Assembly: GCF_034702125.1 (NCBI RefSeq)
Contig: NC_085872.1
Span: 32,834,376-32,898,375, forward strand
Length of the DNA: 64,000 nucleotides
Direction of reading: 5' to 3'
Source of the DNA: Engraulis encrasicolus
Taxonomy: Eukaryota; Chordata; Actinopteri; Clupeiformes; Engraulidae
Position numbers and translations under genes: made by a program. Within the stretch, counting starts at the first letter, position 1. The number at the start of each line of letters is the position of its first letter. This document shows positions 12,472 to 23,529 of this stretch, in pieces. The notes beneath the pieces are model-generated. The model was given only the letters and a program-made list of their open reading frames with translations, searched no databases and was not told where the DNA came from.

Positions 12472-12480
12472 ACCCCAAAC
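12472..12480. repeat. Left 9-bp target-site duplication
   Basis: ACCCCAAAC directly precedes the left TIR and is repeated exactly at 23521-23529 directly after the right TIR. Confidence 0.9.
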
Positions 12481-12933
12481 TAGCCTGAGTATCATCCTCC
12501 GTAGTGAACGCGCTAGCTCAATACTTTCGCTTGCTGACCACCAAAGAAACTCAAGAGAAAGAACAATCTCTTGGCGGGGAATGCATTGGCCACGGTGTAG
12601 TACGGGGGCGTTGCCTGAGGACACGAGTGGATGGAAAATTAACTCCCTTGCGCATGGTCATTGGTCATCCATCCACGATGGATGCCATTTTCGTACTCCG
12701 TAATTTGTGGCCAAGTAACGGCAGCTGTTGGTCAGCAGTAATTGCTGGGGGTAATTAAGGACAGCTGACAGACATTCACGCTGTCCTATGACCTGTTCCA
12801 CAGTGAATAACATTTCCGTACTCCCCTCGCCATCATTTCCTACTACGCTGTTATGACGTGAGTAAGCCCTCTTATCTCAAGCCTCTTTGCTGACCACGGA
12901 GTCTGACCCTGCAGCCACCCCCGGCAGTTGGAA
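12481..12933 (+). repeat. Left TIR, interrupted by a MITE
   Basis: The TIR runs 12481-12541 and resumes at 12898-12933 (61 + 36 = 97 bp) once the insertion at 12542-12889 and its duplicated target (12890-12897) are removed. It matches 23424-23520 in inverse with about two mismatches. Confidence 0.92.
12542..12889. mobile_element. Non-autonomous hAT-like MITE inside the left TIR
   Basis: 348 bp with imperfect ends (CAAAGAAACTCAAGA and inverted CAAAGAGGCTTGAGA), flanked by an exact 8-bp duplication CTGACCAC at 12534-12541 and 12890-12897. The 8-bp target and CA-AG termini suit hAT. The intact right TIR has CTGACCAC only once, which independently proves the empty site. Confidence 0.85.
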
Positions 12934-13241
12934 ATTATCTCACTTAATGAGCTGCGCGTGCTGGGCGGGCCCTCATTTGATTGGGTGACCTGAGAGACCA
13001 ACAGTCCAATAACGCTGCCCCATTTTTCACGTGACCTTGTTGTTTACATGAGTTAGAACGCCCCGCGAAATTCTCACATGGAGGGTGCTTAGCGCGACAT
13101 TTCTCGTTGCACGGTGTCTTTTATTGCCCTTTTTGGGTCCAGTTCTCGAAGAATCGCCATGCAACAGCACGCAACAGTTCTTAGCACCTACCCGTTACGA
13201 AGAAGAGTGTGGGAGAAAATTCCCACTAAGACGGCAGAGAG

Positions 13242-16200
13242 ATGGCGACCTCTGCATCGTGTTCGGCGAAAGTTCCTCGCCCTCCCAACTTTGCAGATTT
13301 TTGTCGTTTGTGCCCTACAAATCTTCGCGTGAATGGGACTCTGACAAATCTCAGAAAGATATTCGACCTACGGGATCCTAATCCTGATCCAGAGAAGCCA
13401 GTCGAAAAGTCCATCTTTGAGCGGCTTGCTGCTGTTGGTGTCATTTTGCGCAGAAGAAAAGATGCCTCCGAGAGGTTATGTTTGAAATGTCACAGATATA
13501 TCAAGCGCGTGGAAGATACCCTAACACGTCTGCAAGAGTGGAAAGACGTGGATGACCGTGAGAGGCAGCCAACTGATCCACAGAAAACACCACAAAGAAA
13601 CGAAAAGCGGACGAGAGAGCCGACCCCCTCCAAAACTCCGAGAGCGGTGAAAAAAAGGCTGGAGACGACCTCAAAGTCACCCGACCCGAAGCCACCAAAG
13701 GCACCGCCAAAGGCGCCTACTCAGAGAACCAGCGAAACCAAAGTAAGGGTTTTCCTTTTTTTAGTCTGGTTATGTAGGCCTATGCATTTGAAATATATAG
13801 CAAAGATCATGTGAATCTTTTTGTGTCTTGTTCTAGGACCAGTGTTGGGAAAGTTACTCAAAAACTGTAATGCATTACTGATTACATATTACTGTCTTTT
13901 CAAAATAATCCCTTACACTACAATATTACTATATTTAAAATGTAAGGCATTACATTACTATTGCATTACTTTAGTTACTTTCGCCAAAAGAACTGTAGGC
14001 CTAAATATGGATCTGGCAATTTATTACAGTGTTAATCAAGCTCATGAATCATTACTTTTTCACCTCCCATGCAGGAGGTGTTTTGGCAGCATACAGACTA
14101 AAAACTACCAGGTTCAGGAATAGCGTCTTTCTGACCCAACACACTGAATACCACTAAAATCCAGGTCATTGTAATGCAATTGTAACTTAAGCTATTTAAC
14201 ATTGTAACTAAGTAAATATTACAGATTTTTGCCATGTAATGCCTTACATAACTGCATTACAGCTAAAAGTAATGCATTACAGTAATTAATTACTTTTGTA
14301 ATGCATTACCTCCCAACACTGTCTAGGACGAACAGGACACTGCACTTTTCATTTTTGTTGTCCATGTTGATTGGTATCAATGCTTATATCTATGCTACTT
14401 CATTTTTTAAATCTTGCCAATCATTTAACGTTACCGGTAGATCAGTATTTTGCATTTATTAGAAACATCTGTGCTCTTCCCTACCAAAACAGGAGTATTT
14501 GAAATGAAAATGTGCCATCATCACAGATGGAACAAATTAACATGTAGGGTGCTGTGTTATTCTAGATATCTTGTTTTCTAGTTTATGGAAAGATGTTTGT
14601 TTATTTGATTGTTGACCTTGTGCAATATGTATCCTTTCAGGTCACTGTGACTTATCGTTCAAGAGTGGAAAGACCTGACAACATTAAATGCAAAGGGGTA
14701 ACAGCAAGCATTGTAGAAAACCTTGCCAGAGGTGAATTTAAGACAGCAGCACGGATGATGTTCACTTGTGAGGGATTAGTAAAAGAGATAAAGGAGCAGT
14801 CACTGAACCTTTTGGAAGAAGAATGCACAAAACTGACAGCTATACAGAGTGACTTCATTTTAAGGAAAACCAGTGCGCAAGACTTGGAGAACTTCTCCTT
14901 CGATAAGTTCCAATCAGACCTGAAGCGATTGTCACCATTCTTTCTGTCCATCCTCAGTAAAGTAACTAAGAACTCCCGAAACCACATCTGTGCAAGTGCT
15001 GCAGTTGCCATACGTGGCCGGAACAGTCAGCTCTCTGCATTTTCGCACTACATAAACACAGTTCTGCAACATGGAGGGGCAAAAACTGCTGTATTTGCTC
15101 GGTTGTGTAAATTCGGAATATCTACTACACAGGACAATGCACGAGTGAAGCAGAGGGAGTTGGCCAGCACATGTGGGAAGGATTTACAAGCCATGAAGAG
15201 GAAGCTGGAAGCACATGCTGAACAAAAGTTGGATATACATACTGTCGGTGGGGACAGGGATACACATGCTGTCGGTGGGGAGGTGGATACACGTGCTGTC
15301 TGTGGGGAGATGTACAACCTATCTATAACAGCAGAAGATTTCAGTGATCTTGCAGTCGGCTTCCTGGCCCCTCCAATTGAACCTGAATGCACTCTACAAT
15401 CTACTCCACCATCCACCCCACCACCACCACCACCACCAACTTACAGTATCATATTCGATAACCTGGACTTCTACAAACAGACACATCACCAGTCAGAAAC
15501 AAACAGCAACAACTCTATCCACTGGACACATCATATTGCCGTACAAGACCGTGTCTCGACTCATCATCTTCCAAACAATGAACCCGTCAAACCACTTCCA
15601 CTATTCCAAATTGGAGACTGTCTTCCCACCCCAGAGATTGAAGCTCACCTTCGTACCGAATTCATTATTCTCGGTAGCCGTATCCTGACCAAACACCTCC
15701 CTGCTCTAAAACAGTTTGCACCTGCTGTAATCTATCACATACCACACCAGTATTCTGAGACTATGACACAGCCATCAACTGAGGTGAGCTACATATAGTA
15801 TAACTGGAATGTAGTAGTCTTGGATTTTTTTTCTGTCAATTATGCTATTCTCTACTAATGTCAAAAGCAAATTATTTATTTCAAACTTCATGCACATAAA
15901 TGTGTTGAACAATTATTAAGTAAATATATAAGCTTTGCATCTTCCTGACCTCTAAATCTAATGTAAGTATCTGGGTACACTTTAGATCGTTATGAATTAT
16001 AATTTGTAGACAATTGATAGTTTGTCATGTTTCTATGCCGTATATAATAACCTCTGGCCACTTGCTTACGCTGGGTATGTTCAATGGAGCATCAGCAACT
16101 ACACACTCTGACAAATTCTTCCTTATTTTCAGTTTCCACTTGGGCTGCTGTTCAAGAATGAGAGTGTTACTTCAGATCTTGTGGATATCCTACAGCACAT

Positions 16201-19200
16201 GCAGAGAGAGTAAGTGTTGTGCACACATACAGTATCAGTTTCTACAATTCTTACCTTACCTACAATTCTACGTTTGATCCATCTTCCAAGTCCAGGTGCA
16301 CTTGCATAACTCTCAGCAGTCTTTGTATCCCTCCACCAATGCTTAAGCATGTCATATTTTATCTAAATTAAACCTTTTATTGTCCTTGGTGGATTGATTC
16401 AAACATGCAATGCTGTCGATTTGTTCACTTCCTTCCAATAATTTTAATGAAAATGGTCCTGTCCGATATCCAAGCAGATGTTTTCTCAGTTTGTTTTATA
16501 TGGTTTGCTCAACCCTGATCCTTTATCTGCTTGGATATGAAGTCCTGAGCCTTGAACAGAATATATGTTGGCAAATACATGACATTAGTGATCGACTAAT
16601 GGACATCATTCTCCTCTTCAGATAGAATCAATGGACAATTCCCTATGTAGTATTGAAGGGAGACATGTACACAAGTAACAGTGTAGAAAATTAGCTTTTG
16701 GCTTGCTTTGTCTCCAGATACGTCCCAAGAACACCAACAGGTCTGCAGAGCATCTTCATCGGGGGTGACCGCCTGACTGAAGGCAACAGCAGATCCGTAC
16801 AATGGGCCTTTGGGGAAGGCGAGACTCCTGAGGACAGGCTGGATGGATTACTCGCCAAATTTGAAGACTGGCATGCCTTCAGGATTCTCTTAGGGGTAAC
16901 CTTTATAAACAATATTTTACTCCCATTACATTTTCCTTTGCAACCCCAAGACATCAATATCTTTTGTATACTGAACATTTGAACAGGACAATTATTCTGA
17001 CATTGTCCAAGTATTTTATTGTCCTACATGTAGCACTTCCAAATTGTCAAAATGGTTTTACATGTGAAATTATCAGATTCCTATTGTTCTCTCAATTACT
17101 TCTTCCATTCATTTCTCTGTTAGTGAAACTTGGCGCTGTAGGTACGACATGTGACAGTTATTTCACAGCATTAAAAGGACTGCCAATCATCACACTTAAT
17201 ATTCTTATGTTTATGGCCTTTGCAGGTACACTTCAAGATCTTCTGCACCGAGAGGTCAGCGCGGGACCATGGAACTTTATTCGCAAATATGAATACAGTC
17301 AAGTGTAGCAATGCTAAGAAGGGACCGCACCATGCCTTCAATGCGTACAAAGAGTTCGTCCGGAAGGACACGTCTGCCCTCTTCATTGCGGCGGCGATGG
17401 AGGTCTTTGGAATGGAAAATGTGGAAGGTGATTTATAAGATTTCTACATTAGATACACCGACATTGCATTATACAGCCTTACATGTCTTTTATGTTGACA
17501 ACATAACCTTACAGCATACGTAGCAATCCATTCCTAGCTTTTGCAATTTGAGTTCCGTGCATTTTTATCGGTGCACAACTTGCATGTGCTTGCACATCCA
17601 TCAGCCTTACTTAATTGTCTCACAAAGGAATAGAGCTGGAATTGGTACTCTACGCATCATCCCTCACTCAGCTTACAGGTGCATCACAGTAGGACAGACG
17701 TCAATGGAAAGGAGAGGCTGGAGCACACTGCAGCTAGTTTTTAAAGACTTTATTTGTGCACACACCCGACTAACGTTTCGGTGTTGCTACACCTTCTTCA
17801 GAGTCGATGTCTCAAAGTAATGAACTGAGTGAGATGATGAAGTTATTGAAACAGCAACAGGAGCAACTATCTCGACTCAGTTGACTCTGAAGAAGGTGTA
17901 GCAACACCGAAACGTTAGTCGGGTGTGTGCACAAATAAAGTCTTTAAAAACTAGCTGCAGTGTGCTCCAGCCTCTCCTTTCCAAAGGAATAGAGCTGCAA
18001 CATTTCAAGTCTGAAGTCACACACCATAGTCCAATGTTCTGTAAGAGGCTTTGTTATGACACTCTTAGGTGTATTAGCTACTGATCTTATGGACAATTTG
18101 TTGGTCCCTTTAGTTGCAGGGATGGATTTTGAATATGCAAATAGATCACAGTATCTACAAATATGACATAGTGTAATTATTTTTGAGAGGACTACATGTA
18201 AGACTACATGCCATTTTGCAGTAACATCTATAAAGCTATCGGTGCTTTTTCATTATGTCTTTTCAGATGTACCCAAGGATTTACCGCAGGACATCATGAG
18301 CATGACCAAACAGGAGCAGCGAACTTGGCTCCACGACAAAGTGGCCAAGGTTGTTGACAGGTTTGTCATCAACGCTGACATTGCCAACATTTTCCAGGGT
18401 GTAAGTCAGGCATCACAGCCCCAGCAAAGGGAGGAAATGAGCTGCCGGGAACCCGGGTGCCAGCGTACCTTTGTTTACCCAAAATGTCGGCTCAAACATG
18501 AGAGGAAAGATCATGGCCTAGACTTTGGGGAGGACACAAGCCACAAGGAAGAGCCCACTGCTAAGCCTCCCTCTTGTGACTACAAAAAAAATCACACGGA
18601 GGCAAGGCTTAGCTTTGGGCTCTTCCTTGAGGACATGCAAGATGCCGTCAGAGAGGGGGACGGGGAGCGGCTGATCCGACTGTATAGAGTCGCTTTGTTG
18701 TACTACAGAGCCTATGGGCGCACCCAGTATGCGTATAGCACCTTGCTTCTGCTGATTCATGTTTCGGCAGTGCTGTCACCAGCAAAAGCACATAGCCTGA
18801 AATGGAACAGGTTTTTCAATGGGAAGGGGGGAAAAGGAAAAAACATCCCATTGGACTTGCACCTCGAACATTTAAATAACTTACTGAAATCATTCTTGAA
18901 GGGAATGGGGCCGAATCTTACAGAGGCCGGCGCAGATAGGGTGAGTAAGTCTCTCGGATCCCTCAAGAAGATTTTGGATAATGCGGACAGAGAGCTTACA
19001 GTTGCCAGTCCCTCTGGCTACCACCACTGTGCGCCAGAAACTCCAGACTTCCTTAAACTAGTGGAAGTTATCAGGAAGGCAGATCTCTTCAACTTCTCTG
19101 CCGACAGGGCATTTGGTGCCTTCCCAAACTTTGATAGAAATCTGCTAGCCCGCGTCAAGTATACCAACATGTGGGAGTGGATCATGGCCAAATTAAAGCT

Positions 19201-19222
19201 TTGGAACAAAAAATACCCGTAA
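13242..19222 (+). CDS. DUF6589-type protein, probable transposase of the 11-kb element
   Basis: Exons 13242-13742, 14641-15783, 16133-16209, 16718-16895, 17226-17427 and 18267-19222 join in frame (3057 nt, 1018 aa) with GT-AG sites. The start ATG follows gagag and begins MATSAS. Residues 21-83 form a ZAD-like zinc pair (FCRLC at 20-24, CLKC at 80-83). A Lys/Pro-rich stretch follows at about 115-165, then a helical region and a three-fold repeat at about residues 365-392. Exon 4 holds IFIGGDRLTEGN (Asp591), the likely first acidic residue of an RNase H-like core. Exon 5 reads HFKIFCTERSARDHGTL. The last exon has a C2H2 finger (Cys760, Cys765, His778, His783) and the conserved block GKGKNIPLDLHLEHLNNLLK. 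Assignment to DUF6589 is by remembered motif similarity, and a transposase role is inferred from the TIR context. The final TAA overlaps a strong donor-like GTAAGTA, so a further exon is possible but not needed. Confidence 0.85.
13840..14321. mobile_element. hAT-like MITE in intron 1 of the DUF6589 gene
   Basis: 482 bp with ends CAGTGTTGGGAAAGTTACT and inverted CAGTGTTGGGAGGTAATGC, flanked by an exact 8-bp duplication TCTAGGAC (13832-13839 and 14322-14329). It is full of taatgcattac motifs and has no coding frame. This terminal sequence is familiar from many teleost genomes. Confidence 0.9.
15228..15312 (+). repeat. Coding tandem repeat, about 30 bp, 3 copies
   Basis: Three in-frame units encode variants of DIHTVGG, DTHAVGG and DTRAVCG within exon 2 of the DUF6589 gene. 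All preserve the frame. Confidence 0.8.
17639..17982. mobile_element. Penelope-like retroelement fragment with inverted arms
   Basis: Flanked by an exact 15-bp repeat aaaggaatagagctg (17624-17638 and 17983-17997), which suits a retroelement target duplication. Inside are two nearly identical 100-bp inverted arms (17706-17805 and 17883-17982) around a 77-bp centre. Each arm carries CTGAAGAAGG, CCGAAACG and then AATAAA, a signature I associate with Penelope-like terminal repeats. It lies in intron 5 of the DUF6589 gene. The arm sequence is seen directly; the family is inferred. Confidence 0.6.
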
Positions 19223-19459
19223 GTATGGGTAAACAGTACCTACAACAATATGTATGTCTAGAAAAGAATGGGAAGGCACTAGATCAAAAAGTCGAATACC
19301 TGCCTATATGTAATGTGATGGCTGAGAGTTATTAATGATTATAGCATTTTTCAATGTTTGTAATGGAAAGAGGTCTCAACGTTGTATGCTTTAGCTTCAA
19401 AATGTACACAGTTGATATTGGAACACTGAGGAAATAGAAATAAACAAGACTGACACTGA

Positions 19460-19481
19460 AATAAAATGACACCTGTTTATT
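19460..19481. promoter_or_regulatory. Facing poly(A) signals of the two convergent genes
   Basis: AATAAA on the plus strand (19460-19465) serves the DUF6589 gene, which stops at 19222. TTTATT (19476-19481) is AATAAA on the minus strand and serves the helicase gene, which stops at 19692. The 3' ends therefore lie back to back and may overlap. Confidence 0.65.
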
Positions 19482-19691
19482 ATAATCACTTTGTGTCTTT
19501 CTCTCTGTTCATAACAAGGATATGATCAACTTACACGCTGGTATTTGGTGTCATTTCATAATTTCTACAACTTATCAAATTGAAAAATCAAACATGATGG
19601 TGTTCATCAAAGAAAAATGAATTTTCCTAAGGTAGGAAATTGTCAAGGAGTCAAAGGTCACAGTCTCTATACCTTGTAGTAGTATTAGCTA

Positions 19692-22600
19692 CTAGTCTAT
19701 ACCAGAGTAACTGTCTGGATCTATACCAGATGAACTGTCTAGATCAGAGTCACTGCCATACAATGAACTGACATCATTTTCGGTAACATTGTCATAGTCA
19801 TCAGGCCCATCAAAATACCCAGGATAATCCAGGTCTGGTTCATCAAAAGATTCCAAAACTGATGGCTCAACATACTCAATGTCTCCAAACACCTCATATA
19901 TAATGCGGAGAATTTCCTTAGCATGTTCTCCATAGAAAACAGGGAGGTGTGTGACAATGTAAACATAGTCAAAGATGTGTGTACAATTCTCAACAACAGA
20001 CTCTATCAATTCGTCACTAAAACCTGTACAGGCTTCAGAGTTGGTATACAGATGTGTAGTATTGAGCAGCAGGTAAGCTCGATACTCCTGCAGTAGTTCC
20101 CTGACCAGGATTCTATCCTCTGGGTCTACATCTCTGTATCTAGTTTGCAACCTGAAAATATTCATGAAGGATTCAGATGGTGGGAAGGGTATTTCACATG
20201 CTTCACCTGCACATTTGCATGTCCTGTGACAGTGTGTACAGCATCTGTGACCAGGTTCCACGCTCACAGGGCCATCTTCAAACAGGCAATATAAAGCCTT
20301 ACGAATGCAGTCACTTGGACTTGTAGTCACCAAGCCCTTAACACCCTTGTCAACTTTTATTAGCTGTGTCCCATGATAGTACAGAACAGCATTAACATGT
20401 GACCCACTACGCCCAGCTCTACCAATTTGCTGGAGTACATCTTCTGCGTCCTCCGGTGGGCCGTACATAATGACATAAGAGACATTTGGGAAGTTCATCC
20501 CCATACTGAGAGCATTAGTTGCTAGTACAATTCTACAGTTGCCATTACCATTCAGTGATGAAACAACATATTTCTTGTATTTAGGCAGGGTGGAACTGTG
20601 GTACATTCCAATGAAACAGTTTTTTGTTCTTTCTTCGGGGTCCCTATCCACCCAGGCATCTGGTCCCAGCTCTGTATGCAGGTAACGATGCACTTTGCCT
20701 GTTGTTTTTACTGACCGACAGTAAATGATTATCTGTGGTGCAGCAACACCACCATCTTTTACCAGTTTAACTACCCAGTCAAGGCATTTCAGCTTATCGT
20801 TTGGCAGTCTTACAATACCTAGTCTAATGTTCTCTCTGTTTGGGGATACGTGTATTCTCCTTGCTCCCTGCATGTTTAGCATACTGATGACCCTCTCTCT
20901 AGATTGGGTGTCCGCTGAAGCTGTCAATGCCAGGATTGGAATGCCTGTAAAACAGTAACAAACATGTATCAATTGTGGAAACCTCCTACCACAGAACCAC
21001 TATTGGGTAAATGTACTAGTGTCATGCAGGTCAAACAGATGTGTCTACATGTTCTAGAGCAATGATGTCTGTATGCAATGTAAATAATGTGACCTTTTCA
21101 TTCAGTAGCAATCAATGTGTTTGTAAGATAGATTTTCCTTCTGTAAAATGTATACATTAGTTAAACTTTAAAAGGTATAAGTGTAAGAACTCTGATGTGT
21201 TACTGTATTGTACATAATATGTGCACATCATGTGTTACAACCTGGAATAAATTCTATGCCTTCAGAAACTGGTTCCTCACATAATGTTACTGTTATGTAT
21301 CTACTTTACCATTTTGAACATACACTGCTCTAGGACATTACTACTAGGTCATAGATAACATTGGTATAATCTAAAACATATGGAAGGACATATAGTTACA
21401 ACATGTACATGTAGTTGTAATAATCTTACCTTCTTTCACAATTGACCGCAGTTCACCCAACCGACTGAAGCTTTCTCGAAAGGCAGGACTTCTCTCTTTC
21501 TTCTTAGCCTGTCCCCTTCAAGTGCAGAAAAAGATTATATTGATTAATTTTTTTGCAAGACAATTGAAGACATAACTTCTACATTGATCACAAGCGTTAG
21601 ATTGCAGATGACGTTGCAGTATTAAAATACATCAATCTGAAAATACCTTTTCAGTATATTGGAATTAATTTCTACTTTGGGCTAAGTTAGGGCTCGTGTA
21701 TATCAAATTATTCCATACCGGTCAGTTCTATATTTCTGATACCAAGTTACCAACGCATAAGAACAGATGTACTAGTACTAGATTTGGGACTAAAACTTTC
21801 AGCTGATGGAATCTATAAAGGTCTTAACTCATTGACTACCAAGGGTTGTTTGGAATTTCAGACGTAGGCTCCCACAGTTTCGTCATTTTTTGTCAGTTTT
21901 TGGACAGTAACCAAATATTTTACCTTAGACCTAAAGACACTTGTTCGAAAGCTGAAAATCTCAGCTTTCTACATGTGAAAACGGTATGCCCCTATCTTCT
22001 TCCATTCCGAAGATATTTAGCTTTAAGTGCGGACTACTTTATCGGAAAATATATAATAATAATCGAGTGGAGAAAAGGCCCTTTATGTCTCGGATGCGCT
22101 CTTTGCCTCTACGAGTTTAAATGATGATCTAATTTTATTTTCACTCCCCCAAGACAAGACCAGTAGCTTCCAAGTACACTATTTCAATGAAAAAACACCT
22201 GGATCAGTGCTGTTTACAGCTAATATTATCATCTGATGTGCTAGTTAGCCTGATGGGCATTTGTCATTCTAGTATAAAAAGTAGAAGCGCCTACACTCAC
22301 CAACGTTAGATTCTGCTGCTATGTTGTGCTGGTTTTTCATTCCAAACTTTCCATTTCACACCTAATTTGATGACAGCAAGCCTTCTTATCCTTCTGTAGA
22401 CATGTGTTTACAATTTAGTTAGCGAAGCCCAGACAGCCGTGTTTTGATGACTCAGGCGACTTCCTATAACGTGAACAGGAAGTGCATGATTTCCTTCACA
22501 GTTCCAGACAGTAGGCTTACGGTTATTAAAATTATTCTTGGGTTGGCGCCGAGCCTGGCGTTGTTATTAAAATCTTCAGATGATGACACGAACTTTGACA

Positions 22601-23300
22601 GCCATCTATGTCTCTTCTACTCATCACAGAGCCACCAAAACCTCACATAATAACCATTGGAGTGTCTAGTTATGAAATATGTAATAAAATATGAAAAACG
22701 GGTTATCCCGTGATTGGTAGTCAATGAGTTAAATTAGCCTCAATCAGTAAGCCTTGATAGAAATGAAAGGATAATAATGTACCATTTGTACGTCACGTGA
22801 ACTTCATCCACAACTATGCCCACGATGTTCTGTCTGTACCGGGGAGACGCCAGCATGCTCCTCCACTTGTCGTTTAGAAGCCAGCTCTCTGGGCCGCCGA
22901 AAACGAGCTCGACATTTCCACTCAAAATCTCCTCGTCGTTTCTGCCCAGTTGCGCGGCCGAAACACCGAATTTCGGGGCCTCTTTCACCTGGTCCTCCAT
23001 TAATGCGACCAGTGGGGAGACAACAATGACAATGGGTTTCTCCACGCCGTGGAACATAGAACTGCCCAGCGCCAACTTCTTGCACACGCGAGGCACGAGT
23101 TGATATATAAGACTCTTCCCGAACCCGGTAGGCAACAATGCCAGAACGTCTTCCCCGCCGACAAAAGCTTGCAAAGCATCTCTCTGTTCGCGTTTAAGCT
23201 CCGAAATTCCTTCGACTTCAGTGAGAACTGACGAAATCGCTTCGTCGATCAAGCGGGCCCGAGCCACCGCTACCAAGTCGGCCATGTTGATTGTTGACAT
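19692..23300 (-). CDS. RecQ-like superfamily 2 DNA helicase of the 11-kb element
   Basis: Exons 22783-23300, 21430-21515 and 19692-20944 (minus) join in frame (1857 nt, 618 aa). Residues 57-63 are Walker A (PTGFGKS). SPLVALMEDQ (95-104) is motif Ia. The DExH box is DEVH (165-168), followed by TYKWGQ where cellular RecQ has QWG. LTASAD (208-213) is motif III and QQIGRAGR (373-380) is motif VI. A Cys-rich zinc patch (CCTHCHRTCKCAGEAC) follows, then an acidic, Ser-rich C-terminus. No winged-helix or HRDC domain was recognised, so it is shorter than cellular RecQ enzymes. Expected role: ATP-driven unwinding or remodelling during transposition. The start could also be MADLV, five codons downstream. 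Its promoter would lie in the right 220 bp, including the TIR. Confidence 0.9.
21824..22732. mobile_element. TTAA-flanked piggyBac-like MITE in helicase intron 1
   Basis: Ends CTCATTGACTACCAA and inverted TTGGTAGTCAATGAG are each bounded by TTAA (21824-21827 and 22729-22732), the target site of piggyBac and Kolobok elements. About 0.9 kb with no transposase. It sits wholly inside the intron between helicase exons 1 and 2. Confidence 0.85.
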
Positions 23301-23423
23301 TGACAGTAAATAGAATGATTGTTGATGATGATAGAAGGCTGGCCTTCACGTAAGAGGGCTTGGGGAGGGGCTTAGACTATCAGCGAGCCTATTGGCCGTT
23401 CAGATACTGAACGAATATCTGAA

Positions 23424-23520
23424 TTCCAACTGCCAGGGGTGGCTGCAGGGTCAGACTCCGTGGTCAGCAAGCGAAAGTATTGAGCTAGCGCGGTCACTAC
23501 GGAGGATGATACTCAGGCTA
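23424..23520 (-). repeat. Right TIR, uninterrupted
   Basis: 97 bp, inverse of the left TIR with about two mismatches. It ends CTCAGGCTA and is followed at once by the duplication ACCCCAAAC (23521-23529). Confidence 0.92.
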
Positions 23521-23529
23521 ACCCCAAAC
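23521..23529. repeat. Right 9-bp target-site duplication
   Basis: ACCCCAAAC, identical to 12472-12480. Confidence 0.9.

Follow-up and report, generated by a model that had tools for sequence, protein, structure and literature searches.

The window analysed here, a stretch of 64,000 nucleotides from the European anchovy Engraulis encrasicolus (C16:32834376-32898375), contains an 11,040-bp element at positions 12481-23520 in which a gene for a DUF6589 protein and a gene for a RecQ-like helicase face each other. Based on its ends, its copies in the genome and the phylogeny of both proteins, it is highly probable that it is an autonomous AcademH-type DNA transposon, which reached the anchovy recently through horizontal transfer, with a lancelet or some other bearer of lancelet-type AcademH as its source, and which then multiplied mostly as 1.1-kb non-autonomous copies.

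Ends and genes of the element

The element is flanked by an exact 9-bp direct repeat, ACCCCAAAC, at 12472-12480 on the left and 23521-23529 on the right, in agreement with the original prediction made from the sequence of this locus. Its terminal inverted repeats are 97 bp long. The right repeat (23424-23520, minus strand) is continuous, and the left one (plus strand) is divided into an outer part of 61 bp (12481-12541, beginning with TAGCCTGAGTATC) and an inner part of 36 bp (12898-12933), the remainder of the arm beyond a nested insert of 348 bp. As they stand, the outer parts agree in 60 of 61 positions (against 23460-23520), and once the insert is removed 95 of the 97 positions are identical. 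The predicted 97-bp ends thus hold, although the word intact was loose for an element with an interrupted left arm.

The DUF6589 gene lies on the plus strand and consists of six exons with GT-AG introns and an open frame of 1018 amino acids. Exon 1 (13242-13742) encodes N-terminal zinc-type sites of the CxxC...CxxC form, exon 2 (14641-15783) includes FDNLDF with D440, and after the short exon 3 (16133-16209), exon 4 (16718-16895) contributes GGDRLTE with D591 and E595 as well as DWH with D624. Exon 5 (17226-17427) is followed by exon 6 (18267-19222), which ends in the stop codon and holds a C2H2 site (C760/C765/H778/H783) and the invariant residues D826, E830 and D832. In this protein Pfam finds the supposed DUF6589 domain (E=2.1e-41) and no other, and the C2H2 zinc site is likewise borne out by its residues, which together with D826, E830 and D832 are kept in 14 of 14 aligned proteins. 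The presumed ZAD-like site, in contrast, is a mere four-cysteine pattern for which Pfam gave no ZAD family. D591 and E595 are kept in 15 of 15 aligned proteins and D440 in 12 of 13. Judged from the alignment, the invariance of D591 fits catalysis without being proof of it, and D440, D591 and E830 are candidates for a catalytic triad.

The helicase gene is convergent with the DUF6589 gene and comprises three exons on the minus strand, again with GT-AG introns and an open frame (618 amino acids). Exon 1 (22783-23300) carries the start, the Walker A motif LPTGFGKS and a DEVH box, exon 2 (21430-21515) is short, and exon 3 (19692-20944) extends from the motif LTASA to QQIGRAGRSG and on through a Cys-rich segment to the stop. 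Pfam identified DEAD (2.6e-14) and Helicase_C (9e-19) domains, and the pair of convergent spliced genes open from ATG to stop lies where it had been predicted. No nuclease domain was found by Pfam in either protein. The closest solved structures by sequence are 1oyw, an ATP-dependent DNA helicase (RecQ of E. coli; E 5.7e-28), and then 4tmu, a RecQ; the RecQ subfamily TIGR00614 matches at 3.5e-49, yet under its cut-off (167.9 vs 219.8 bits). In addition, a protein in the search results (P0045; three contigs, the longest of 4,033 bases) shows full identity to the helicase of the window along 67% of the latter's length.

Three nested inserts are present in the window copy. The one that splits the left terminal repeat (12542-12889) is a 348-bp miniature inverted-repeat transposable element (MITE) with CAAAGA...CTTTG ends, flanked by an 8-bp duplication of its own (CTGACCAC; 12534-12541 and 12890-12897). 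At least 40 genome copies match it at 98-100% (40 scored of 1801 first-look candidates), and it is not at this place in the coding copies on C5, C14 and C18. On C10 (C10:36244542-36245012), another copy with the terminal repeat of the window element has this MITE at the CTGACCAC target as well, in opposite orientation, indicating that the site was hit twice or that the insert was flipped. The second is a hAT-like insert in intron 1 of the DUF6589 gene (13840-14321; CAGTGTTGGGA...TCCCAACACTG, with the 8-bp duplication TCTAGGAC), and the third, flanked by TTAA and with 15-bp inverted ends, lies in intron 1 of the helicase gene (21828-22728). Intron 5 of the DUF6589 gene further contains, at 17705-17983, two 101-bp arms that are perfect complements around a spacer of 77 bp, and this spacer is mostly gone in the C5, C14 and C18 copies.

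Genome copies, target duplications and empty sites

In the 1.43-Gb assembly (1880 contigs), the terminal 26-mer with at most three mismatches was found at 335 places (165 forward and 170 reverse), and a reversed-pattern control gave no match. The 100 places listed, all exact matches on C1 to C9, resolve into 43 close pairs and 14 single ends. These pairs, together with the window, C14 and C18 copies, make up the 46 copies examined, which consist of 3 coding copies, 33 non-autonomous copies (907-1508 bp) and 10 near-palindromes (103-131 bp); the single ends (one of which is the C5 coding copy), the 235 other matches and the C10 copy are outside this set. A 9-bp target duplication accompanies 46 of 46 copies, 41 of them exactly and 5 with one mismatch (in one case an N). 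Among unrelated pairs of ends, 2 of 2070 matched, and both matches involve L043 and L047, two palindromes whose surrounding segments are 98% alike and which may go back to a single event. The 33 non-autonomous copies, about 1.1 kb in size, differ by a median of 0.8% and a mean of 3.1%, with one copy only 62% like the consensus as aligned here.

Coding copies also occur on C5, C14 and C18. Those on C14 and C18 stop at the same termini as the window element and each has its own exact 9-bp duplication, while the right end of the C5 copy is unreadable where its right part reads N. The expected copies with the same ends are thus present. In the C14 copy both frames are open, with AG/GT at the DUF6589 exons, an identical helicase protein and 5 differences in the DUF6589 protein. 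In the C5 copy, helicase exon 3 has lost 10 bases and the readable part shows no helicase exon 1; the C18 copy is without exon 4 and the greater part of exon 5 of the DUF6589 gene and retains almost whole helicase exons. Contamination of the assembly was ruled out, since the terminal 26-mer is found on many chromosomes and coding copies on four.

Empty sites with a single target, as foreseen, were also recovered. The window flanks, joined with one target, align with contig C1058 along all 320 bases at 97%; at least 37 further places, at 91-96%, match some 182-208 bases across the junction (40 of 377 candidates were scored, two of them the window's own flanks). C1058 is largely collinear with window positions 2370-26278: the matching blocks, at 85-97%, are separated by gaps, and one block, at 72%, lies off the diagonal. 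The contig carries ACCCCAAAC once and no element, and could represent either the other allele or a paralogue; three repeat copies elsewhere read alike around the target. The insertion target is itself repeated sequence, the flanks of 12480 and 23521 having at least 37 near-copies of the empty target elsewhere.

The ten near-perfect palindromes (L039-L048, on C2, C3, C4, C5, C6, C8 and C9) consist of terminal repeats only, with varied centres, and each has a 9-bp duplication, one of the ten with one mismatch. The same base stands at position 35 of both arms in 10 of 10 palindromes and in 31 of 33 longer non-autonomous copies. This sharing gives the palindromes the look of products of internal deletion or arm-to-arm copying. 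Two segments, L087 (C6:22734140-22736253) and L088 (C8:50676005-50678117), are 98% alike over 2.1 kb and have a palindrome of terminal repeats only at the same target. The two palindromes differ in their arm variants, A/A in one and G/G in the other, and in their centres, which would fit either conversion or two insertions.

Lancelet affinity and origin

Outside its own family copies, the nearest relative of the window DUF6589 protein (43 hits) is one from Branchiostoma floridae, with 73% identity over 695 columns. For the helicase, relatives were taken from the best 120 of 3963 matches, in which other fish are covered by annotated or predicted proteins, and the nearest of those listed is from B. 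lanceolatum (79% over 95% of the query), the other four lancelet sequences of the clade reaching 62-71%. Named proteins of other fish and of other anchovy copies are at most 56% identical to the window proteins among the matches listed.

The tree of helicases, built from the window sequence and 34 of the 120 hits listed, unites the window with five Branchiostoma sequences at a support of 100/99, with B. lanceolatum as its sister (99/97), and sets 13 other fish sequences together at 99/99. The tree of DUF6589 proteins comprises the window sequence and 26 of the 43 hits; in it the window, the C5 copy (P0030, 100% identical to the window protein over 345 residues) and six Branchiostoma sequences are grouped at 100/99 and 14 other fish sequences at 100/100. 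Approximately unbiased (AU) tests rejected the placement of the window with fish for the helicase (p=5.84e-8, 27 sequences) and gave p=1.5e-6 for DUF6589 (21 sequences, without two long branches, P0030 and some short sequences). Lancelets and fish have been separate for over 500 million years, and as far as these proteins tell, the trees of both genes are in conflict with the tree of their hosts.

The four coding copies of the anchovy, on four chromosomes, are 98-100% alike, and after them no helicase match exceeds 54% (52% for long ones) and no long DUF6589 match exceeds 55%. Such a distribution is the pattern of a recent arrival. An unlikely alternative is vertical inheritance, with two old AcademH lineages in the chordate ancestor and the lancelet type surviving only in lancelets and the anchovy. 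Lineage sorting of this kind is possible in principle as several element lineages coexist both in the anchovy and in lancelets, and the search of other fish through annotated or predicted proteins leaves it additional room. Nevertheless, the window helicase is 79% identical to that of B. lanceolatum, at a tree path of 0.26 that is shorter than the path between the lancelet sequences P0046 and P0058 of the same clade (end branches 0.26 and 0.32). Further points against an old lineage are the lack of long relatives between about 55% and 98%, with only four near-identical coding copies, and the median of 0.8% by which the non-autonomous copies differ.

On balance we rather favor the view that a complete, intron-bearing 11-kb AcademH element recently crossed into the anchovy lineage, its source being a lancelet or some unsampled bearer of the lancelet type. 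In this genome it is now represented by two or more copies in which both genes are open and by young non-autonomous partners. The nesting of the window inside the lancelet sequences suggests this direction of transfer. No relative that might point to a viral carrier was found in the viral contigs scanned with DUF6589 queries. Titles and abstract openings from a literature search yielded no report of horizontal transfer of Academ, which is not proof that neither the element nor its transfer has been published. The text of the anchovy genome paper, supplements aside, describes a genome of 1.4 Gb in 24 chromosomes with abundant DNA transposons and has no mention of Academ, the letters occurring only within 'Academy' (PMC13403563).

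Gene pairing, proposed mechanism and comparison with known systems

The anchovy genome contains 96 DUF6589 matches, of which 34 are long (at least 290 amino acids). Every one of these 34 faces a helicase match in convergent orientation; the distance is no more than 6 kb for 32 of them, 6.3 kb for one and 8.9 kb for another. This count used 51 of the 126 helicase matches. In resident lineages, one pair compared over DUF6589 exon 6 has a ratio of nonsynonymous to synonymous substitution rates (dN/dS) of 0.13 at 80% amino acid identity, and one pair compared over helicase exon 3 has 0.29-0.30 at 75%; pairs that include the window lineage are saturated. The pairing and these ratios make the helicase look, from sequence evidence, like a maintained part of the element. 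Within a resident AcademH-like lineage, the members at C16:32668310-32670974 and C18:29775267-29777931 have identical proteins over the compared exons and a dS of 0.004, from which it appears that this lineage has moved recently as well.

Alternatively, two host genes could be enclosed by repeats through chance, or the element could be a composite whose helicase was captured as a passenger and has no role in transposition. The C18 copy, which has lost DUF6589 coding parts and kept its helicase exons almost whole, would suit a passenger. Both versions are nonetheless quite improbable, as the convergent pairing extends to long DUF6589 matches only about 50% identical to the window and the helicase exon of the one lineage pair is under constraint. 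The two additional coding copies bounded exactly by the termini also speak against them.

For an autonomous transposon, the DUF6589 protein would most likely be a DDE-type transposase with an acidic core around D440, D591 and E830 and an internal C2H2 finger, whose N-terminal zinc-type sites may recognize the 97-bp ends. It would cut the element out and join it to target DNA at staggered cuts 9 bp apart, and repair of the stagger by the host would then leave the 9-bp duplication. For the RecQ-like helicase, the most likely task is to unwind or remodel DNA, either at the ends or at an intermediate of strand transfer or gap repair. Presumably the same enzymes move the non-autonomous copies of about 1.1 kb, which keep the ends alone. 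Of the predicted self-mobilizing system of a helicase and an RNase H-like transposase, the self-mobilizing pair of genes is upheld by copies, empty sites and pairing, and the RNase H fold was not shown.

Several observations weigh against a recently transferred, autonomous AcademH element. The AlphaFold model of the DUF6589 protein for the P0003-first input has a mean pLDDT of 45.9 and is weak around DNLDF and GGDRLTE, so the RNase H fold that was expected from structure prediction was not confirmed; the P0009-first model has a mean of 64.8 with segments below 50 at 149-215 and 276-360, which hold DNLDF (176) and GGDRLTE (324), and Foldseek returned no match for it in PDB and BFVD at E<=0.001. 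With three nested inserts, one of them in the left terminal repeat, the window copy itself may no longer be mobile. One close resident DUF6589 pair has a dN/dS of 2.40, from very few changes (dN 0.012, dS 0.005). As for the transfer, its case appears to be one of protein trees and copy distribution, and the p-values of the AU tests are generous because the groups were named after the trees had been seen. Short DUF6589 fragments of 86-94 amino acids reach 64-70% in the anchovy genome, so that the identity gap is clean for long matches only. At 73-79% protein identity, none of the lancelet elements sampled is the immediate donor, and the donor would be an unsampled one. Finally, the name AcademH appears to be owed to the helicase and the 9-10-bp duplication, the link between DUF6589 and the Academ transposase being a presumed one.

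To our knowledge, the role of the helicase in such transposons is an open question. A single fish offers nearly identical coding copies, in two of which both genes are open, resident relatives, and dozens of non-autonomous copies that are young and show precise 9-bp duplications, and this combination makes the question testable. If the proposed reading is true, the anchovy would offer a natural test system for the action of a transposon-encoded helicase and for whether this enzyme determines the 9-bp stagger. Part of the interest also lies in the lancelet-type origin, an affinity absent from the original prediction: if the transfer is true, a large spliced two-gene element has moved between very distant animals. 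The horizontally transferred transposons usually reported are smaller than this element.

The long duplication and the convergent two-gene layout had been thought to deserve independent classification, but this layout is common to all 34 long DUF6589 matches. An independent new superfamily was ruled out; no new class is needed, as a helicase with a duplication of 9 or 10 bp is already the mark of AcademH according to PMC10045372.

Membership in KolobokH or another RecQ-carrying superfamily is very unlikely, given that Kolobok targets TTAA, whereas 46 of 46 examined copies duplicate 9 bp of varied sequence, and that DUF6589 is the sole Pfam domain of the first protein. KolobokH is comparable as a lineage of DNA transposons that encodes a RecQ helicase, and one Kolobok of a red alga has RecQ on the complementary strand; a further difference is the occurrence of KolobokH in fungi only, according to PMC9587614.

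Resident AcademH-like elements of the anchovy and of other teleosts share with the window element the combination of DUF6589 and a convergent RecQ-like gene (the convergence being seen in the anchovy), and differ from it in belonging to the fish clade, with about 48-55% identity in DUF6589 and 46-52% in the helicase for long matches. The nuclease of AcademX is of the XPG type, and the window element departs from AcademX by its 9-bp duplications and by having no Pfam nuclease domain. According to PMC10045372, AcademX is a lineage of the same superfamily with a nuclease in place of the helicase and duplications of 3 or 4 bp, those of AcademH being 9 or 10 bp, and the length of the duplication in Academ seems tied to the presence of helicase or nuclease.

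The closest known system is AcademH, with which the window element has in common a superfamily 2 helicase and the length of its duplications, here together with terminal inverted repeats, and from which no difference in a defining feature was found. This lineage of the Academ superfamily was reportedly described by Kojima in 2020 (Mob DNA 11:15). It is also treated in PMC10799480, and the low copy number resembles that reported for fungi. What is particular to the family of the window element are lancelet-like proteins in a fish, ends of 97 bp and non-autonomous partners of 1.1 kb.

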